This document shows, one piece after another, positions 2,381-9,116 of a stretch of DNA of 64,000 nt (the first letter of the stretch is position 1; each line of letters begins with the position of its first letter). Source of the DNA: Halosimplex litoreum. GTDB taxonomy: Archaea > Halobacteriota > Halobacteria > Halobacteriales > Haloarculaceae. The stretch lies in the NCBI RefSeq assembly GCF_016065055.1, contig NZ_CP065856.1, positions 4,091,836-4,155,835 on the forward strand, given 5' to 3'. Below the pieces are notes generated by a model. It was not told where the DNA came from. It did not search any database and saw only the letters and a list, made by a program, of their open reading frames with translations. The position numbers were made by a program, and so were the translations under genes.

Positions 2381-3541
2381 TCATTCTGGTGCCTTCTCGG
2401 CGCGACCTCTGGCCATCAGGAACACGCCGAGGTACTCCGGAACGGAACGGATTCCCGCCTGGAGATTAAAGCTATCGCCACGCAGTTCGACCTCCCCGGA
2501 GGTCGTCACCTCGACGTTGATCTCGTGGCCCACGAACGTCTCGGGGACGGCGTCGACCAGCGGATCGAAGTCGTCGAGGTCCGTACGGTCGATGCGCCGC
2601 ACCGCCAGCGCGCTCCCGCCGTGGAGGCTCCCCGGCAAGCGAATGAGACGGTTCACGTCGGTCGTCACCGGCTCGTCGATCGGGGCGTTTTGCGCCTCGA
2701 CGACCTCGTCGACGAACGCGTCGAGCAGCGTCCGCAACCCGACGCCACCGAGTTCGACGTTGCCCGCCTCCAGCGCCGCGGCGTTGCTCTCCAGGGCGCC
2801 GTAGATAGTGTCGGCTCGCCCTTCGCCGATACCGTCGAGTTCCCGCAGTCGCGCCGTCGCCTCGTCGTCGTCCATCGCGAGCAACTCGTCGACGAACTCG
2901 AGGAGTCGTTCGTGGACGCGGCGGCCCCAGCCGCCCTGCGTCTCGACGACGCGCCGGCTGACGCCGCCACGCATCTCGCTCGTCTGGACGTACTCGTCGT
3001 CCAGCCCGATCCCACGGACGTAGTCGACGATCTCGCGTCGCGCGTCGCTCCCCAGTTCCTGGACCGTCTCGTCGCGGACGTGGACGTGATAGCCCCGACC
3101 GCCGGAGAAGACGACCGTCGTGTCGTCGAAGCCGAAGTCGTCGTCGAGGAAATCGAGCAGCCGACGGAGCGCGTCCTTGCATTTGGCGAGCATCTCGGCG
3201 TAACTGTCCTCGCCCAGCGTCACCGACGGGAGGTGGTCGGCGTCGAGGTCGAAGACCAGGTCGGAGGCCCGCCAGGTCTTCTCACTCATCGAACTCGCGC
3301 CGGGGCTCTCGTAGCGGCCGGCGGAGAAGTAGACGTGTTTCGGGCGTTCGCGGGCGAGGAAGTCCTCCAGGTTACCCACGTCGAGCAGCGAGCGGTGGCG
3401 GATCATCGTCTCGCCGGGGCCGTCGGTCCAGGGGATGTACCCCCACTCGCGCTCGTTGGCCTCCGGCGGCGGGGTCAGATCCGACCGTCGGTAGTGGTCG
3501 CCGAAGCGGCCTCGGAGGTACGCCCGCGTCTGTTCCTGCAC
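2381..3541 (-). CDS. priS: DNA primase small catalytic subunit PriS
   Basis: Catalytic subunit of the archaeal/eukaryotic-type primase, which makes primers for replication; 386 aa, normal length. Visible motifs are the metal-binding DLDADH (about 97-102), the conserved SGGRGYHVHV (about 146-155) and the IRLPGSLHGGS motif near residue 300. The start is a GTG at 3539-3541, supported by a TATA-like element about 28 nt upstream. It heads a two-gene operon with the GINS subunit 13 nt downstream. Nothing suggests damage. Confidence 0.97.
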   Translation of the reverse strand: MQEQTRAYLRGRFGDHYRRSDLTPPPEANEREWGYIPWTDGPGETMIRHRSLLDVGNLEDFLARERPKHVYFSAGRYESPGASSMSEKTWRASDLVFDLDADHLPSVTLGEDSYAEMLAKCKDALRRLLDFLDDDFGFDDTTVVFSGGRGYHVHVRDETVQELGSDARREIVDYVRGIGLDDEYVQTSEMRGGVSRRVVETQGGWGRRVHERLLEFVDELLAMDDDEATARLRELDGIGEGRADTIYGALESNAAALEAGNVELGGVGLRTLLDAFVDEVVEAQNAPIDEPVTTDVNRLIRLPGSLHGGSALAVRRIDRTDLDDFDPLVDAVPETFVGHEINVEVTTSGEVELRGDSFNLQAGIRSVPEYLGVFLMARGRAEKAPE

Positions 3542-3564
3542 GGCTACCGGGTTTCGGACCGGGC

Positions 3565-3575
3565 GTAAAAGCGGT
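3565..3575 (-). promoter_or_regulatory. TATA box for priS-GINS operon
   Basis: On the minus strand GCTTTTACGCC lies about 28 nt before the GTG start at 3541, which argues for a leaderless transcript and for the GTG start. Confidence 0.5.
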
Positions 3576-3620
3576 TTCGCTCATCGGCCGAACGTGTCGG
3601 ACGACCGTCCCGAGATCCAC

Positions 3621-3726
3621 CGCTCACGGGTCATTTCGTTCACCGGAAGACTCGCTACGCTCGCCTTCCGAGCCTGCGCTCACTCCGTTCGCGCAGATCC
3701 CGTTCGCATCGAGGTCTCCCTGCGCT
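3621..3726 (+). repeat. Dispersed intergenic repeat, copy A (inverted relative to 7334-7440)
   Basis: This 106-nt non-coding stretch matches the reverse complement of 7334-7440 at roughly 90 percent by eye, with one 2-nt gap. It contains short inverted repeats, for example GGAAG/CTTCC arms around TCGCT and CTGCGC/GCGCAG arms. It sits between priS and the acetyltransferase. No open frame of credible composition covers it. Confidence 0.75.
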
Positions 3727-3789
3727 CGCGGCACACACCACTCAGCAGACGAATCGCTCGCAGCTCACTACGTTCGCCGCTCGCGTATC

Positions 3790-3816
3790 CGAGGCGCTCG
3801 CTTCGCTCGCGCCTCG
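3790..3816 (-). terminator. Hairpin immediately after the acetyltransferase stop
   Basis: CGAGGCGC (3790-3797) pairs perfectly with GCGCCTCG (3809-3816) around an 11-nt loop, directly abutting the TAA of the minus-strand gene. It may act in 3'-end formation, but there is no T-tract, so its function is unproven. Confidence 0.35.
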
Positions 3817-4302
3817 TTATCCCCCGAGCAACTTCGAGAGACGGTCGGCCAGCCCCTCTTCCTCACCGAGCTTGAGGTAGTAGGCGTCGCCGCCGTCCTC
3901 GTAGTAGTTGTCGATGCGGCGTTCGATGGAGAAGCCGATGTGCTGGTAGAATCGCAGCGCGTCGCGGTTGGTCGTCCGGGCGTGGCAGGTCACCGAACTG
4001 TAGTCCTCCGCGACGCGGGCGACCAGCGCTTCGCCGAAGCCCTCGCCCTGGTAGGCCGAGTCGACGGCGAGAAAGAGGATGTAGCCGTCGCGGCGGACGG
4101 CCGCGAAGCCGACCATCGCGTTGCGGTCGGCGCGGTCGACGAACAGGTAGACGGTCGAGCGCTCGTAGGCGTTCTCGAAGAACCCGCGGCGCTGGCGGAG
4201 CACACCGTCACGGGCGCGGATGCGCTCTTTGAGTTGCCAGGCCTGCTCGACGTAGTCGGCGTCTCCTGGGTCGACGACCCGTCGCTCGACGTTGACGCTC
4301 AC
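3817..4302 (-). CDS. GNAT-family N-acetyltransferase
   Basis: Acetyl-CoA-dependent N-acetyltransferase, about 161 aa from the chosen start. The GNAT fold is seen in the order MVGFAAVRRDG-ILFLAVDSAYQGEGFGEALV (motif A, Gln/Arg-x-x-Gly-x-Gly type, here QGEGFGEA) and NRDALRFYQHIGF (motif B). I chose the GTG at 4300-4302 (MSVNVERR) rather than the upstream TTG at 4321 because a clear TATA box lies 30 nt before it and would overlap the longer form. The substrate cannot be told. Divergent from the DUF502 gene. Confidence 0.85.
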   Translation of the reverse strand: MSVNVERRVVDPGDADYVEQAWQLKERIRARDGVLRQRRGFFENAYERSTVYLFVDRADRNAMVGFAAVRRDGYILFLAVDSAYQGEGFGEALVARVAEDYSSVTCHARTTNRDALRFYQHIGFSIERRIDNYYEDGGDAYYLKLGEEEGLADRLSKLLGG

Positions 4303-4327
4303 TAACCGGGGTGTAGCGTGCAAGCCA

Positions 4328-4336
4328 CTATAATTC
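4328..4336 (-). promoter_or_regulatory. TATA box deciding the acetyltransferase start
   Basis: AATTATAGT on the minus strand lies about 30 nt upstream of the GTG at 4302, so the transcript should begin at or near that codon. Confidence 0.55.
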
Positions 4337-4408
4337 CATCGGCGTCGACGCGGCCGTCGGCCGCCCTACGGCCACAAACCTTTCGTCGGGCCGCGGCCAG
4401 CAGTGTGT

Positions 4409-5437
4409 ATGGTGTTGCTCTCGTCCGGGCCGACACCGGACGTCACCGGGTCGGACACGACGCTCTCCGAGACGGTCCGGCAGGTCTTCATCACCGGCGC
4501 GGCGCTGACTATCCCCATCCTCATCACGGTGATGATCCTCGCGTTCGTCGTCAACTTCATTCTCCAGGCGATCAGCCCGGTGGTCGATCTCGTGAGCGAG
4601 CAGTACGGGGTCGGGACGAACCTCGACCCGATCGTGATGGAGTTGCTCGCTGTCCTGACGCTCGTCACGCTGATCTTCGTCATCGGCCTCGTCGCCGAAG
4701 CCCGCTCGGGCAACGGCTTCGAGCGGGTGTTCGACACGCTGATGGCCCGCATCCCGGGCGTCGGGTCGGTCTACACGAGTTTCAACGAGATGACCGAACT
4801 GCTCCTGTCGAACGACGCCGAGAGCTTCCGCGAGGTGAAACTCGTCGAGTTCCCCCGCGAGGGCTCGTACTCCCTGGCGTTCGTCACCGCCGACGCACCG
4901 CCGACCATCGGCGAGACCACCGGTCACGACGACGTGACGACGCTGTTCATGCCGCTCGCCCCCAACCCCGTGATGGGCGGGTACGTCGTCCACGTCTCCA
5001 GCGACCGGGTGTACGACGTGGACCTGACGGTCGAGCAGGGGATCCGGTCGATCGTCACCAGCGGGGTCGCCACCGGCGAGCGGGGCGACGACGACTCGCC
5101 CGAGGAACTGGTCGACCTCGAGACCATCCGCGAGCAGGCCCGTGACGGCGTCGGCGACCTCAGCGACTGGGGGACCCGAACCGTCGACGACCTGAGCGAC
5201 ATGACCGGCGACGCGGCCGACGACTTGCGCGAACAGGCCCGTCGGGAGTTCGCCGCGCTCCACCCCGAGATCGACGAATCCGAGATCGACGACGAGGAGG
5301 CCGTCCGCCATTACATGCTCGAACAGAGCGACGCCGAAGTCGGGCGGTCGGCCGGCGGCGACGCCGACGGCGAATCCACCGACGAAACGCCGACAGACGA
5401 CACGACGGTCGGCGGCTCGACGGGGGGCGACGCGTGA
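4409..5437 (+). CDS. DUF502 family membrane protein
   Basis: Integral membrane protein of unknown function, about 342 aa. Two strong transmembrane helices lie near residues 25-55 and 75-100, followed by the family signature PGVGSVYTSFNEM and a soluble domain with TLFMPLAPNPVMGGYV, which is diagnostic of DUF502. The last 120 residues are an acidic, low-complexity tail typical of haloarchaea. The ATG at 4409 is preferred over a GTG two codons earlier. The stop overlaps the archease start by 4 nt (GTGA), so the two are co-translated. Confidence 0.85.
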   Translation: MVLLSSGPTPDVTGSDTTLSETVRQVFITGAALTIPILITVMILAFVVNFILQAISPVVDLVSEQYGVGTNLDPIVMELLAVLTLVTLIFVIGLVAEARSGNGFERVFDTLMARIPGVGSVYTSFNEMTELLLSNDAESFREVKLVEFPREGSYSLAFVTADAPPTIGETTGHDDVTTLFMPLAPNPVMGGYVVHVSSDRVYDVDLTVEQGIRSIVTSGVATGERGDDDSPEELVDLETIREQARDGVGDLSDWGTRTVDDLSDMTGDAADDLREQARREFAALHPEIDESEIDDEEAVRHYMLEQSDAEVGRSAGGDADGESTDETPTDDTTVGGSTGGDA

Positions 5438-5862
5438 GCTTCGAACTGCGCGAGCACACCGCCGACGTGGCCGTCGAGGCCGTCGGGGAGTCGCTCGACG
5501 CCGTCTTCGGCGCCGTGGCCGACGGGATGGCCGCGGCGATGTGCGACGAGATCCCGACCGACGGCGACGAGCGCTTCGACTTCTCCGTCACCGCGGAGGG
5601 CCGCGAAGCGCTGCTGTTCGACTACCTCGACGAACTCATCTACGAGCGCGACGTGCGCGTCGTCCTCCCGGTCGACAACGAGGCCACGGTCTCGGCCCCG
5701 TCGTCCGACGACGGGCCGAACGAGTGGGTCCTCTCCGGGTCGGCCCGGGGCGTCCCGCTCGAACGCGTCGAGGCGCGTGACCTGAAAGCCGTCACCTACT
5801 CCGAGATGGACCTCTCCGAGACCGACGACGGCTGGCACGCCTACGTCGTCTTCGACGTGTAG
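5434..5862 (+). CDS. Archease (RtcB activator)
   Basis: Small acidic metal-binding protein, 142 aa, that speeds guanylylation of the tRNA-splicing ligase RtcB and widens its NTP use. It starts with the family hallmark FELREHTADVAVEA and carries LLFDYLDELIYERD and the C-terminal LKAVTYSEMD, where conserved acidic residues bind metal. Length is normal. Translationally coupled to the DUF502 gene (4-nt overlap). The ligase itself is at 7611-9116, separated by one gene and a non-coding stretch, so ligase and activator are near neighbours. Confidence 0.95.
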   Translation: MSFELREHTADVAVEAVGESLDAVFGAVADGMAAAMCDEIPTDGDERFDFSVTAEGREALLFDYLDELIYERDVRVVLPVDNEATVSAPSSDDGPNEWVLSGSARGVPLERVEARDLKAVTYSEMDLSETDDGWHAYVVFDV

Positions 5863-5899
5863 GTCGGAGAACCGACCCGTTCCGGCCGAGAAGATGCCA

Positions 5900-5906
5900 T
5901 TTATCC
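5900..5906 (+). promoter_or_regulatory. TATA box for DoxX-type gene
   Basis: TTTATCC lies about 27 nt before the ATG at 5930. It supports that start over an in-frame upstream ATG at 5894, which would lie upstream of the promoter element. Confidence 0.55.
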
Positions 5907-5929
5907 CCGACCGATGCCAACCACCGAAC

Positions 5930-7021
5930 ATGAGACAACCGGCTGCGCGGTCGGGTTCGGGCCTGCTTCTGGTCGGATTCGCGCTGGCGACGCTCGTCGG
6001 GCGAGCGAGCGCACACGTCGACTACGTCACCGACCCGCCGACGGCGACGCGGGACGCGGTCGAGTTCGCCGTCGAGGTGCTCTCCGACCCGCTGAACCTC
6101 GCGCTCGTCGCGGGCGGGACGGTCGGCGTCGTCGGCCTCTTGACCGCGTTGCTCGTGGTCCGACCGACGGTACCCGACTTCGAGGCGCTCCGGAGCGCGC
6201 TGTCGTCCTACCGGGAGTACGTCCCGTGGATGCTGCGGCTGAGCCTCGGCCTCCCGCTCGTCGGCGCCGGGTTCGCCGGCTATCTCTTCAGCCCGGCCGT
6301 CCCCGCCGAGGCGCGGATCCTGCAGGTCGGGCTCGGATTTCTCCTGCTCTTCGGTCTGGCGACGCGGGCGGTCGCCGCCGTCGGCCTCCTGACGTATCTC
6401 GCCGCCTTCGCGTTCAACCCGGGACTCGTCCTGGCGATCGAGTACGTGCCCGGATTCCTCGCCGTCCTCCTGGTCGGCGGCGGCCGCCCGAGCGCCGACC
6501 ACATGCTGAGCGTGGTCGCGGGCACCGCCGGCACGTACTACGGCCGGGTCGACCCTATCGGTGGCGTCGCCACGCGGTTCGCCGAGCTGATCGACCCTTA
6601 CGAGCGCTACGTCGCGACCGTCCTTCGGGTCGGCGTCGGCCTCGCGTTCGCCTATCTCGGGCTCGTCGAGAAGCTCGCGAACCCCTCCCGGGCGGTCCAG
6701 GTGGTCTACAAGTACGACCTGACGAGCGTCGTCCCCGTCGACCCCGGCCTGTGGGTGCTGGGCGCCGGCCTCACGGAGATCGGCGTCGGCCTGCTGCTGG
6801 TCGTCGGCTACTACACCCGCGGCGCCGCCGCCGTCGCGTTCACCATGCTCGTCATGACGCTGTTCGGTCTCCCCGACGACCCCGTGCTCGCCCACATCAC
6901 GCTGTTCGGCATGATCTCGGCCATCTTCACCCTCGGCAGCGGCCCCCTCTCGCTCGACGCCTGGCTGAGCCCCTCGGAAGAGCGCGAGCGGGACCGAGAC
7001 ACGGTTTCGGTCGCCGACTGA
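5930..7021 (+). CDS. DoxX-like polytopic membrane protein
   Basis: Predicted integral membrane protein of 363 aa with about eight to nine hydrophobic segments. The N-terminus looks like a cleavable signal (RSGSGLLLVGFALATLVGRASA, cut before HVDYV). A repeat of the DoxX-type pattern occurs: RILQVGLGFLLLFG near residue 125 and YVATVLRVGVGLAFAYLGLVEKL near residue 225, the latter followed by GAGLTEIGVGLLLVVGYYTRGAA. The DoxX family includes quinol-oxidase-associated and redox-linked membrane proteins; the actual role here is unknown. It lies between archease and RtcB but has its own promoter. Confidence 0.75.
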   Translation: MRQPAARSGSGLLLVGFALATLVGRASAHVDYVTDPPTATRDAVEFAVEVLSDPLNLALVAGGTVGVVGLLTALLVVRPTVPDFEALRSALSSYREYVPWMLRLSLGLPLVGAGFAGYLFSPAVPAEARILQVGLGFLLLFGLATRAVAAVGLLTYLAAFAFNPGLVLAIEYVPGFLAVLLVGGGRPSADHMLSVVAGTAGTYYGRVDPIGGVATRFAELIDPYERYVATVLRVGVGLAFAYLGLVEKLANPSRAVQVVYKYDLTSVVPVDPGLWVLGAGLTEIGVGLLLVVGYYTRGAAAVAFTMLVMTLFGLPDDPVLAHITLFGMISAIFTLGSGPLSLDAWLSPSEERERDRDTVSVAD

Positions 7022-7083
7022 CCCGCCGAGCGTAACGTTCAGTACAGGTGAGGGAGTGAGCAGTCGCGGTGCGGTCGGCGCGC

Positions 7084-7111
7084 GCTGTCGCGAGACGAGA
7101 CTCGCGACAGC
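7084..7111. repeat. Perfect 11-bp inverted repeat
   Basis: GCTGTCGCGAG (7084-7094) pairs with CTCGCGACAGC (7101-7111) around the 6-nt loop ACGAGA. It lies just after the DoxX-type gene and may be a 3' structure of that transcript. Confidence 0.7.
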
Positions 7112-7259
7112 ATCGTGCGAGGGATGAGCGGAGGAACGGAGTGACGGAGCGAATCGGCTGGGGAGGGCCGTGGCTATCTGCGGTGCTGTGCGGGGCGGTC
7201 TCTTGTTCCGGTCCTGGTGGACTGAACGGGCGAGGCGCGCTCGCGTCTCCTTCAGTCGT

Positions 7260-7311
7260 CTGAGCGGGTCCTATCCGAAGCGGCCGGAGGCCGCGAGGAT
7301 ATCCCGCTCAG
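7260..7311. repeat. Compound (nested) inverted repeat
   Basis: An outer stem CTGAGCGGG (7260-7268) pairs with CCCGCTCAG (7303-7311). Inside it GCGGCC (7280-7285) pairs with GGCCGC (7289-7294) around GGA. The nesting suggests a folded RNA or cruciform rather than chance GC-rich sequence. Confidence 0.6.
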
Positions 7312-7333
7312 CGACCGCGAGAGCGAGGTCGAC

Positions 7334-7440
7334 CGCAGGGAGACCTCGTCAACGCGAACGGGGTCTGCGCGAACGAAGTGAGCGCAGGCTCGGAAGACGA
7401 GCGGAGCGAGTCTTCCGGCGAGCGAAGCGACCCGTGAGCG
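7334..7440 (-). repeat. Dispersed intergenic repeat, copy B
   Basis: The reverse complement of this 107-nt segment matches 3621-3726 at roughly 90 percent. Arms GGAAGAC/GTCTTCC and TGCGC/GCGCA form internal hairpins. Orientation is inverted relative to copy A, so the two copies could recombine to invert the 3.6-7.4 kb segment. Confidence 0.75.
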
Positions 7441-7610
7441 AGCGCGCCGAGGGCTTTCATCGGTTGCTGTCCCCGGTGAGGGCGGTTGCTGTCACTCGAC
7501 TTCGTCTCGCCCCAGCACAACCAGAAACTCGCGATACATTCGCACATCGAATCGAACGCGCCTCACGGAACAGCGAAACCGCTTTCGGCGCGCCGGGCGG
7601 ACACTCGGGC

Positions 7611-9116
7611 ATGACCACCTACGACGCCGACGGCATCACCCTGGAGAAGGTCAGGGACTACGTCTGGGAGATCCCGCAGGAGGGCGACATGAACGTCCCC
7701 GCGCGCGTGCTCGCCAGCGAGGAGTTGCTCGACGAGATCAGCGAGGACAAGACGCTCCAGCAGCTCAAGAACGCGACGCATCTGCCCGGACTCCACAAGT
7801 ACGCCGTCTGCATGCCCGACGGCCACCAGGGCTACGGCTTCCCGGTCGGCGGCGTCGCCGGCATCGACACGGAGGAGGGCTGTATCTCGCCCGGAGCGAT
7901 CGGCTACGACATCAATTGCGGCGTTCGCATGATGACGACGAACCTCACCTACGACGACCTGCGGGGTCGCGAGGAGGAACTCGTCGACGCGCTGTTCGCG
8001 AACGTCCCGTCGGGGCTGGGCGGCGGCGGCGTCTACGAGGGGTCGATGGACGACGTGGAGGCCATCCTCGACCGCGGCATGGAGTGGGCCTTGGAGGAGG
8101 GCTTTGCCGTCCCCGAGGACCTCGAGCACTGCGAGGACGAGGGCGTTCGCCACGATTCGGACCCGAGCAAGGTCTCGAAGAAGGCCAAGGACCGCGGGAA
8201 GAACCAGGTGGGGAGCCTCGGCAGCGGCAACCACTTCCTGGAGGTCCAGCGCGTGACGGACGTGTATCGCGAGGACGTGGCCGCCGAGTTCGGGCTCGCC
8301 GAGGATCAGGTCGTCGTCCTCATCCACTGCGGCTCGCGCGGACTGGGCCACCAGGTCTGTACCGACTACCTGCGCGAGATCGAACAGGCTCACTCGGGGC
8401 TGCTCTCGGAGTTGCCCGACAAGGAGCTGGCGGCGGCGCCCGCGGGCTCGCAGCTGGCCGAGGACTACTACGGCGCGATGTGTGCGGCGATCAACTTCGC
8501 GTGGGTGAACCGCCAGCTCATCATGCACCGGACTCGTGAGGTCTTCGAGAAGGTGTTCGATCGGTCGTGGCAGGACATGGAGATGGATCTCCTGTACGAC
8601 GTGGCTCACAACATCGGCAAGAAGGAGGTCCACGAAGTGGGCGTCGACCCGGAGGGGCGACGGGCCGGAGACGGCGACGCCGTCGACAGCGAGGAGCGCG
8701 AGGTGTACGTCCACCGGAAGGGCGCGACGCGTGCGTTCCCGGCCGGCCGGGAAGAGGTGCCGCCGGCGTACCGCGACGTCGGTCAGCCGATCCTGCTCCC
8801 TGGGAGCATGGGCGCCGGGAGCTACGTTCTCAGGGGCGGCGAGCGGTCGCTGACGGAGACGTTCGGCTCGACGGCCCACGGCGCCGGGCGGCTGATGAGT
8901 CGGACGCAGGCCAAACAGGAGTTCTGGGGCGGCGACGTACAGGACGACCTGCGCGAGGGCGAGCAGATCTACGTCAAGGCCCAGAGCGGCGCGACCGTCG
9001 CCGAGGAGGCGCCGGGCGTCTACAAGGACGTCGACGAGGTCGTCCGGGTCTCGGACGCGCTGGGCATCGGCGACCGCGTCGCGCGGACGTTCCCGGTCTG
9101 TAACATCAAAGGGTAG
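7611..9116 (+). CDS. rtcB: tRNA-splicing RNA ligase RtcB
   Basis: GTP- and Mn-dependent ligase that joins 2',3'-cyclic phosphate and 5'-OH RNA ends in tRNA splicing and RNA repair; 501 aa. The family motifs are all present: CMPDGHQGYGFPVGG, the metal-binding Cys in YDINCGVRM, GSLGSGNHFLE, IHCGSRGLGHQ, LPGSMGAGSYVL and the nucleotidylated-His motif TAHGAGRLMSR. There is no intein. The ATG at 7611 was chosen because upstream in-frame sequence (from 7170) is repeat-like non-coding DNA. Its activator archease is upstream at 5434-5862. Confidence 0.97.
   Translation: MTTYDADGITLEKVRDYVWEIPQEGDMNVPARVLASEELLDEISEDKTLQQLKNATHLPGLHKYAVCMPDGHQGYGFPVGGVAGIDTEEGCISPGAIGYDINCGVRMMTTNLTYDDLRGREEELVDALFANVPSGLGGGGVYEGSMDDVEAILDRGMEWALEEGFAVPEDLEHCEDEGVRHDSDPSKVSKKAKDRGKNQVGSLGSGNHFLEVQRVTDVYREDVAAEFGLAEDQVVVLIHCGSRGLGHQVCTDYLREIEQAHSGLLSELPDKELAAAPAGSQLAEDYYGAMCAAINFAWVNRQLIMHRTREVFEKVFDRSWQDMEMDLLYDVAHNIGKKEVHEVGVDPEGRRAGDGDAVDSEEREVYVHRKGATRAFPAGREEVPPAYRDVGQPILLPGSMGAGSYVLRGGERSLTETFGSTAHGAGRLMSRTQAKQEFWGGDVQDDLREGEQIYVKAQSGATVAEEAPGVYKDVDEVVRVSDALGIGDRVARTFPVCNIKG

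Follow-up and report, generated by a model that had tools for sequence, protein, structure and literature searches.

The closest descriptions that we found for the element reported here are those of the PATEs and SMR-A of Haloquadratum, as given in the available sections of one paper (PMC3119063). In those sections, PATEs are short, non-coding, and related to IS605-type elements; they carry palindromes near an end, have heterogeneous ends, and lack terminal inverted repeats and target duplications. SMR-A of Haloquadratum walsbyi is a dispersed, non-coding repeat of ~110 bp that resides inside palindromes of larger palindromic elements, with inverted terminal repeats and no target duplication (PMC3119063). 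According to the consulted sections of three other papers, REP/REPIN sequences are high-copy intergenic structured repeats; REPs, 20-40 bp long, undergo processing in the form of folded single strands, and their partner is TnpA-REP, a relative of Y1 (PMC8266576, PMC3116915, and PMC3733652). The accessible part of a further report ascribes extraordinary stability to DNA mini-hairpins that have GNA or GNNA loops and gives a melting temperature of 78 C for GCGAAGC (PMC4686876). In this work, we analyzed a stretch of 64,000 nucleotides (nt; hereafter the window) of Halosimplex litoreum, whose genome is one contig of 4,158,049 bases (C1; the window is C1:4091836-4155835). Two copies of a non-coding repeat lie there in inverted orientation, at 3.6 and 7.4 kb. 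We found that the copy at 7.4 kb sits as an insert within a larger structured element (~7037-7544), the core of which is found across Halobacteria; the original prediction, made from the sequence alone, had missed this.

With slightly less than even confidence, we explain the repeat as a hairpin cassette nested in an element composed of two domains (R1 and D2). This element would belong to a Halobacteria-wide, non-autonomous family of structured intergenic repeats of the PATE/REP/SMR type, and would work as a folded single strand, with DNA favored over RNA. The whole non-coding element lies between the DoxX-type gene and rtcB on the plus strand; its ends are approximate and were taken from a copy with 94% identity at C1:942807-943300. 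The R1 domain (7077-7178, plus strand; 97.9 bits, E = 1.1e-23) consists of stem P1, a variable hairpin H1, GAGGGATGA, a hairpin H2, AATCGGYTGGGGAGG, and GWGGC. The D2 domain (7219-7459, plus strand; coordinates read from the sequence) has an outer stem, a G-rich internal loop, and an inner stem, and is interrupted by the cassette.

The match claimed between the two copies, ~90% over ~106 nt, is real. When 3621-3726 (minus strand) is aligned to 7334-7440 (plus strand), 95 of 109 columns are identical (87%), which corresponds to 91% of the 104 ungapped columns, with one internal 3-nt gap. A repeat search delimited the arms as 3621-3712 and 7349-7440, i.e., 92 nt without gaps and 89% complementary; the next-longest inverted pair within 3400-7700 has 30 nt only. 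With the 121-nt query 7320-7440, the 3.6 kb copy was matched over query positions 11-121 (88%, E = 1.8e-34). The similarity is not a matter of low complexity, since it exceeds the GAGCGAAGCGA loops and spans stems and linkers, and three genome sites are 100% identical over 121 nt. Both copies sit between genes and folding gives chains of small hairpins, as the original prediction had stated, and its suggestion of a family of intergenic elements is supported by the many further copies in the genome: the same query gave 44 matches at E <= 0.01 in a self-comparison of the full genome. Seven of these are near full length, with identities of 100, 100, 100, 99, 96, 95, and 88%; the 7.4 kb copy itself is one of the three perfect matches, and the 3.6 kb copy is the one at 88%. 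An eighth match covers query positions 27-120 at 82%, and the others are partial, several of them ending at hairpin borders (1-44, 41-101, and 97-121). The 3.6 kb copy is a solo cassette with a degenerate first hairpin, located downstream of the GNAT gene.

In the element at 7.4 kb, comparison of junctions placed the inserted cassette at 7322-7442 (plus strand), 121 nt beyond the empty site CGACCGCGAG followed by CGCGCC when one copy of the direct repeat is counted. The insert is bounded on both sides by GCGAG (7317-7321 and 7438-7442, plus strand). We analyzed 63 of the 68 R1 copies matched in this genome by a covariance model at E <= 0.001, with the five weakest dropped (C1:2861586, 3391221, 3404437, 1691918, and 1285684). 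The cassette site was empty in 40 copies, in which CGACCGCGAG or a near variant runs straight into the tail, filled in nine, and fitted neither pattern in 14. Relative to the empty site, the inserts measure 121 nt (four copies) or 64-65 nt (five copies); the long form is the short two-hairpin form plus 57 nt, comprising two more hairpins, within its second hairpin. In D2, the cassette is inserted at a single fixed position and is accompanied by a direct repeat of 5 nt. Junctions read directly revealed no clear terminal inverted repeat, only the direct repeat GCGAG. The two-hairpin form was also read directly within H1 of two R1 loci in other genomes (L057 and L066), and a cassette inside H1 shifts the R1 start of two of the 63 copies (3665102 and 2318468).

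The folded cassette is a chain of hairpins with loops of the common form GA-N-C-GNA-G-N'-GA. The pattern GARCGNAGYGA occurs nine times in the window, compared with 1.45 expected from 100 shuffles (maximum 6). We further sampled 464 kb, made up of the window, which was not randomly chosen, and 20 segments of 20 kb each taken at round coordinates. Among 65 occurrences of GANCGNAGNGA in this sample, the two variable bases are Watson-Crick complementary in 35. Fourteen occurrences, five of them inside the window, have an outside stem of at least four pairs, and 13 of these are complementary and one is G-T. The reversed pattern occurs 10 times, never with a stem of four or more pairs. Because the variable bases are complementary where a stem is present, the loop is a small helix with a tandem G.A, two pairs, and a GNA triloop. 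Two other counts were unusable as evidence: in the comparison of GARCGNAGYGA with its reversed form (352 versus 104), the control and the motif overlap (GAGCGAAGCGAG includes its reversed form), and the presence of GAGCGAAGCGA in 391 of 391 genomes suffers from the same overlap. Two further loops of the cassette type lie between the GNAT stop and the solo cassette (3733-3813, minus strand), one with a two-pair stem (3765-3775) and the other with an eight-pair stem (3798-3808).

For R1, the alignment supports a predicted fold that is kept by compensatory change and conserved on one strand. Of 83 parsed cores, 60 passed an identity filter and 45 were used; the other 15 were excluded manually, in part because H1 or H2 was of unusual length, and this choice favors a tidy alignment. 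For these 45 diverse sequences, RNAalifold predicted 25 pairs, 15 of which have double changes. The structure pairs 91.3% of 1121 cells, compared with 77.0% (standard deviation 0.7) in shuffled alignments and at most 44.9% in slid versions, over which it has the advantage of being derived from the same alignment. There are 148 cells with a double change versus 45.5 in shuffles; by pairs, the count is 15 versus 13.1, and 41 of 500 shuffles reach 15. Stem P1 includes 38 G.U cells and three non-standard cells (one C.A) out of 270. As a duplex or cruciform is blind to the difference between G.T and A.C, one strand appears to be selected, either as RNA or as single-stranded DNA. The long unpaired stretches AATCGGYTGGGGAGG and GAGGGATGA are conserved as well.

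The second hairpin of R1, H2, lies between GAT and ATC, and 71 distinct H2 sequences could be delimited by pattern among the 83 cores. In 40 of them, every position from the outer stem to the loop is a Watson-Crick pair, a G.U pair, or part of a tandem 5'GA/3'AG, and 38 of these 40 contain at least one tandem G.A rung, mostly two or three. In such a "GA ladder", about two Watson-Crick pairs would be followed by one tandem G.A, with two or three of these units in succession under a cap that is mostly GNA; a GNA loop was found in 22 of the 40. Mononucleotide shuffles of the H2 interior gave 0.016 ladders on average, a comparison that is no test of independent origins since the sequences are related. 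The complement strand forms a ladder in none of the 71, necessarily so because G.A becomes C.T. The 2-bp steps interchange (GC/GC 36, GT/AC 17, AC/GT 16, CC/GG 6, and others 11), and 154 of 194 tandems have the context Py-GA-Pu. A second type of H2, GAGGACCGCAG..GAGGACCGCAATC, is a direct repeat without a ladder (e.g., L114, L115, L138, and L146). It is possible, at rather less than an even chance, that a regular GA-ladder helix serves elements across this archaeal class as a functional structure of single-stranded DNA in their very salty cytoplasm, with cassettes inserting into one another, and that both the architecture and the machinery for recognition and transposition are new.

D2 follows R1 in 69 of 167 distinct R1 sites, with an outer stem, a G-rich internal loop that is partly set by the search pattern, and a long inner stem that is free of it. 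Counted strictly, 28 of the 69 have an inner stem of eight pairs or more, with 13 different starts, and the sequences of this stem can be as unlike as CGAGTGTCTCGC/GCGAGACACTCG and CCGCAGGCTCGGG/CCCGAGCCTGCGG. In some loci, tandem units that contain the 3' strand of D2 and a variable part form arrays, with 57 nt x 5.9 in one (L323:1783-2119) and 63 nt x 3.4 in another (L210:3110-3324); the units of any one array are 96-98% alike. Another structured repeat was seen directly before some R1 and also without R1; it reads CCATCTTTTT-hairpin-AAAAACATGGGTGAAAAAGGCC-hairpin-GGTGAA-hairpin-GGATG, or closely similar. Examples are found upstream of rtcB at L213 and upstream of R1 at C1:3170331, 1117732, 2995024, and 738695.

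The element is widespread. With 7030-7600 as the query, we found 98 matches in this genome, including one with 94% identity over query positions 8-515. The same query matched 70 of 116 genomes of the family (E <= 1e-6), including all eight of the genus, with mostly short matches in other genera. A 15-base pattern from the 5' part of the element recovered the same core in many haloarchaeal genera among the matches listed, together with chance hits in other taxa. By covariance model (E <= 1e-4), R1 is present in at least 83 of 145 Halobacteria genomes and at least 36 of 59 genera, which are lower bounds because 26 candidates were scored per genome under strict filters. Spread by plasmids or phages was considered and rejected: the query 7070-7330 gave partial matches in seven haloarchaeal plasmid records and none in a phage record. 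Six R1 strings were absent from the open PubMed Central literature, GAGCGAAGCGA occurs there in 12 papers, none of them on haloarchaeal repeats as judged by title, and term searches in the available sections of PMC2864571, PMC3733652, and PMC3403918 gave nothing on such haloarchaeal repeats.

Copies of the element have defined ends and unrelated flanks, and the element is present or absent at an orthologous site. Two near-identical copies (C1:85769 and C1:3658141; 97.5% over 485 nt) have clean ends in unrelated surroundings; both start with CTC[AG]GTACAGG and finish with ..AAGTGAGCA, and neither a flank repeat nor a terminal inverted repeat was found in these two copies by eye. Upstream of rtcB, R1 is found in this genome and in the sister genome G079, where it is a separate copy next to a transposase gene; the remaining six members of the genus gave no match at E <= 0.01 in their rtcB loci. 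The site at 3.6 kb differs among the sister genomes: in G032 it is just 90 nt long and free of hairpins, in G013 it contains different hairpins, and in G089 part of a cassette, whereas gene-sized inserts occupy it in G079, G043, and G056. None of the 63 R1 copies lies inside a called gene (simple gene caller), and their neighboring genes are convergent in 21 cases, tandem in 17 and 14, and divergent in 11. A role as 5' leader or riboswitch was rejected, as the downstream gene has the same sense in 25 and the opposite sense in 38 of the 63. In Natrialbaceae, R1 also occurs as inverted doublets.

We infer the chemical form and the function of the element as follows. The active form would be single-stranded, purine-rich, and folded, and RNA is a less likely candidate for it than DNA that becomes exposed in replication or transcription. 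DNA is favored because GNA loops have been reported to be very stable in DNA mini-hairpins and because tandem G.A rungs stack in such hairpin folds. An enzyme that acts on folded single strands may carry the elements to new sites, and cassettes may enter existing hairpins at GAGCG/GCGAG.

Several points weigh against this explanation. Its weakest part is the mobilizer, for which no candidate was found. In this genome, Y1 transposase was matched once and TnpB-type genes 10 times, and no R1 was found at these 11 IS605-type loci (best E = 0.24; with 1.5 kb flanks, a distant end could be missed). Across the 145 genomes, R1 and Y1 are independent (57/26/43/19, Fisher p = 1.0), by which an IS200/RAYT partner was rejected, and a Y1 match is lacking in 26 of 83 R1 genomes and in eight of 21 R1-rich genomes. 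Two other candidates were also rejected: for the IscB omegaRNA (HEARO), PF14239 exceeded the cut-off in none of the 145 genomes, with two weak matches below it, and for an autonomous element between inverted R1 pairs ~4 kb apart (three genomes), the interior consists of ordinary genes as judged from translations by eye. Furthermore, RNA would tolerate G.U and tandem G.A equally, and 31 of the 71 H2 are not perfect ladders, being imperfect or of the second type. The 5-nt repeat may be microhomology instead of target duplication, given that GAGCG/GCGAG is common in these elements. Finally, some copies are inherited at their site. Three Natrinema-like genomes (L383, L386, and L388) share an R1 doublet at one orthologous site between divergent genes; read directly, it has GCCACGATAGCAG-type arms between the R1s and a G-C to A-T double change in H1. 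Among 20 sister R1 loci, which are part of the 7030-7600 matches and include none from G043, G068, or G089, three have both adjacent genes in common with a single R1 locus of this genome, six share neighbors partly, and 11 share none: R1 positions mostly turn over, with some inherited.

The strongest alternative, which we regard as doubtful yet worth weighing, is that R1-D2 represents a structured non-coding RNA encoded in many copies, with genes that move or become duplicated, and that the cassette is an expansion segment tolerated in a helix. It would account for the two domains per element, the long conserved unpaired AATCGGYTGGGGAGG and GAGGGATGA, the G.U replacements in P1, and the unrelated inner stems of D2 around a G-rich internal loop, the last with the reservation on the search pattern given above. 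However, none of the 63 copies has an all-A/T 8-mer within 100 nt on its upstream side (highest 7/8, without a control of real promoters), no Rfam match was obtained in the 64 kb window at the gathering threshold, and the loops are GNA triloops instead of GNRA tetraloops. Moreover, the inverted R1 doublets of Natrialbaceae would pair with each other within one transcript.

It is improbable that the elements are PATEs proper, i.e., IS605-type deletion derivatives moved by a Y1 TnpA in trans. In the sections available, PATEs resemble them in being non-coding, with palindromes near an end, heterogeneous ends, and no target duplication, the last as in the copies read here (PMC3119063), but neither the Y1 distribution among the 145 genomes nor the IS605-type gene loci of this genome, as far as they were examined, revealed any association. 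Similarly improbable is a passive origin, in which hairpin-templated slippage and template switching would multiply GC-rich hairpins without function or a dedicated enzyme. The tandem 3' units in L323 and L210 and the nested insertions at microhomology fit such a process, whereas the class-wide conservation of R1 and its compensatory changes, with unpaired bases included, do not. It is highly implausible that the pair of copies acts as an invertible switch on the enclosed genes, despite the inverted 92-nt arms at 89%, since these arms are short and imperfect and the order and relative orientation of PriS-GNAT-DUF502-archease-DoxX-RtcB are constant in the six sister Halosimplex genomes examined out of seven (the fragmented G068 was left out), only one of which, G079, carries an R1 element at that locus; with a single orientation in these relatives, nothing supports the flipping of the 3.6-7.4 kb block that the original prediction had proposed.

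If the cassette and R1-D2 are indeed mobile folded elements, many GC-rich hairpins between haloarchaeal genes would fall into a single family that can be defined and whose fold can be tested. The ladder, being strand-specific, would provide a clear prediction, measurable on short oligonucleotides by melting and nuclear magnetic resonance in concentrated KCl. The explanation would also raise the question of what mobilizes structured elements in genomes without a Y1 transposase match.

The genes that flank the two copies lie outside the elements: the GNAT gene (3817-4302, minus strand) beside the solo cassette, and the DoxX-type gene (5930-7021, plus strand) and rtcB (7611-9116, plus strand) around the R1-D2 element. 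The sequence AGCGAAACCGCTTT is common to the stretches upstream of priS (3568-3581, minus strand) and rtcB (7572-7585, plus strand), with small changes in sister genomes, and is perhaps a common promoter motif. RtcB of G043 (L355:171-3062) has an interruption of ~1.4 kb after residue ~102 within a single open frame of 980 codons. This interruption is probably an intein, and it is absent from RtcB in the window.

Compared with the known systems, as they are described in the sections available, the cassette is like SMR-A in size, dispersal, non-coding nature, and insertion within a larger palindromic non-coding element; the inserts seen here, 121 or 64-65 nt long, lie in a stem of a host that may or may not be a PATE. 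It is unlike SMR-A in having 5-nt direct repeats and no clear terminal inverted repeat, a comparison made by description. The R1 element resembles PATEs in being short and non-coding, with palindromes near an end, heterogeneous ends, and, in two copies, no terminal inverted repeat or target duplication; it differs in that no link to IS605-type elements was found and in its class-wide conserved fold, often with a GA ladder. Like REP/REPIN, R1 is high-copy, intergenic, and structured, with inverted doublets in Natrialbaceae, whereas it is longer, at ~100 nt, and shows no association with the presence of Y1. In the d(GCGNAGC) mini-hairpins, C-G closes a GNA triloop, as it does in the cassette loops and in many H2 loops; there it is a chemical motif, which here caps natural hairpins that also bear tandem G.A rungs (PMC4686876).

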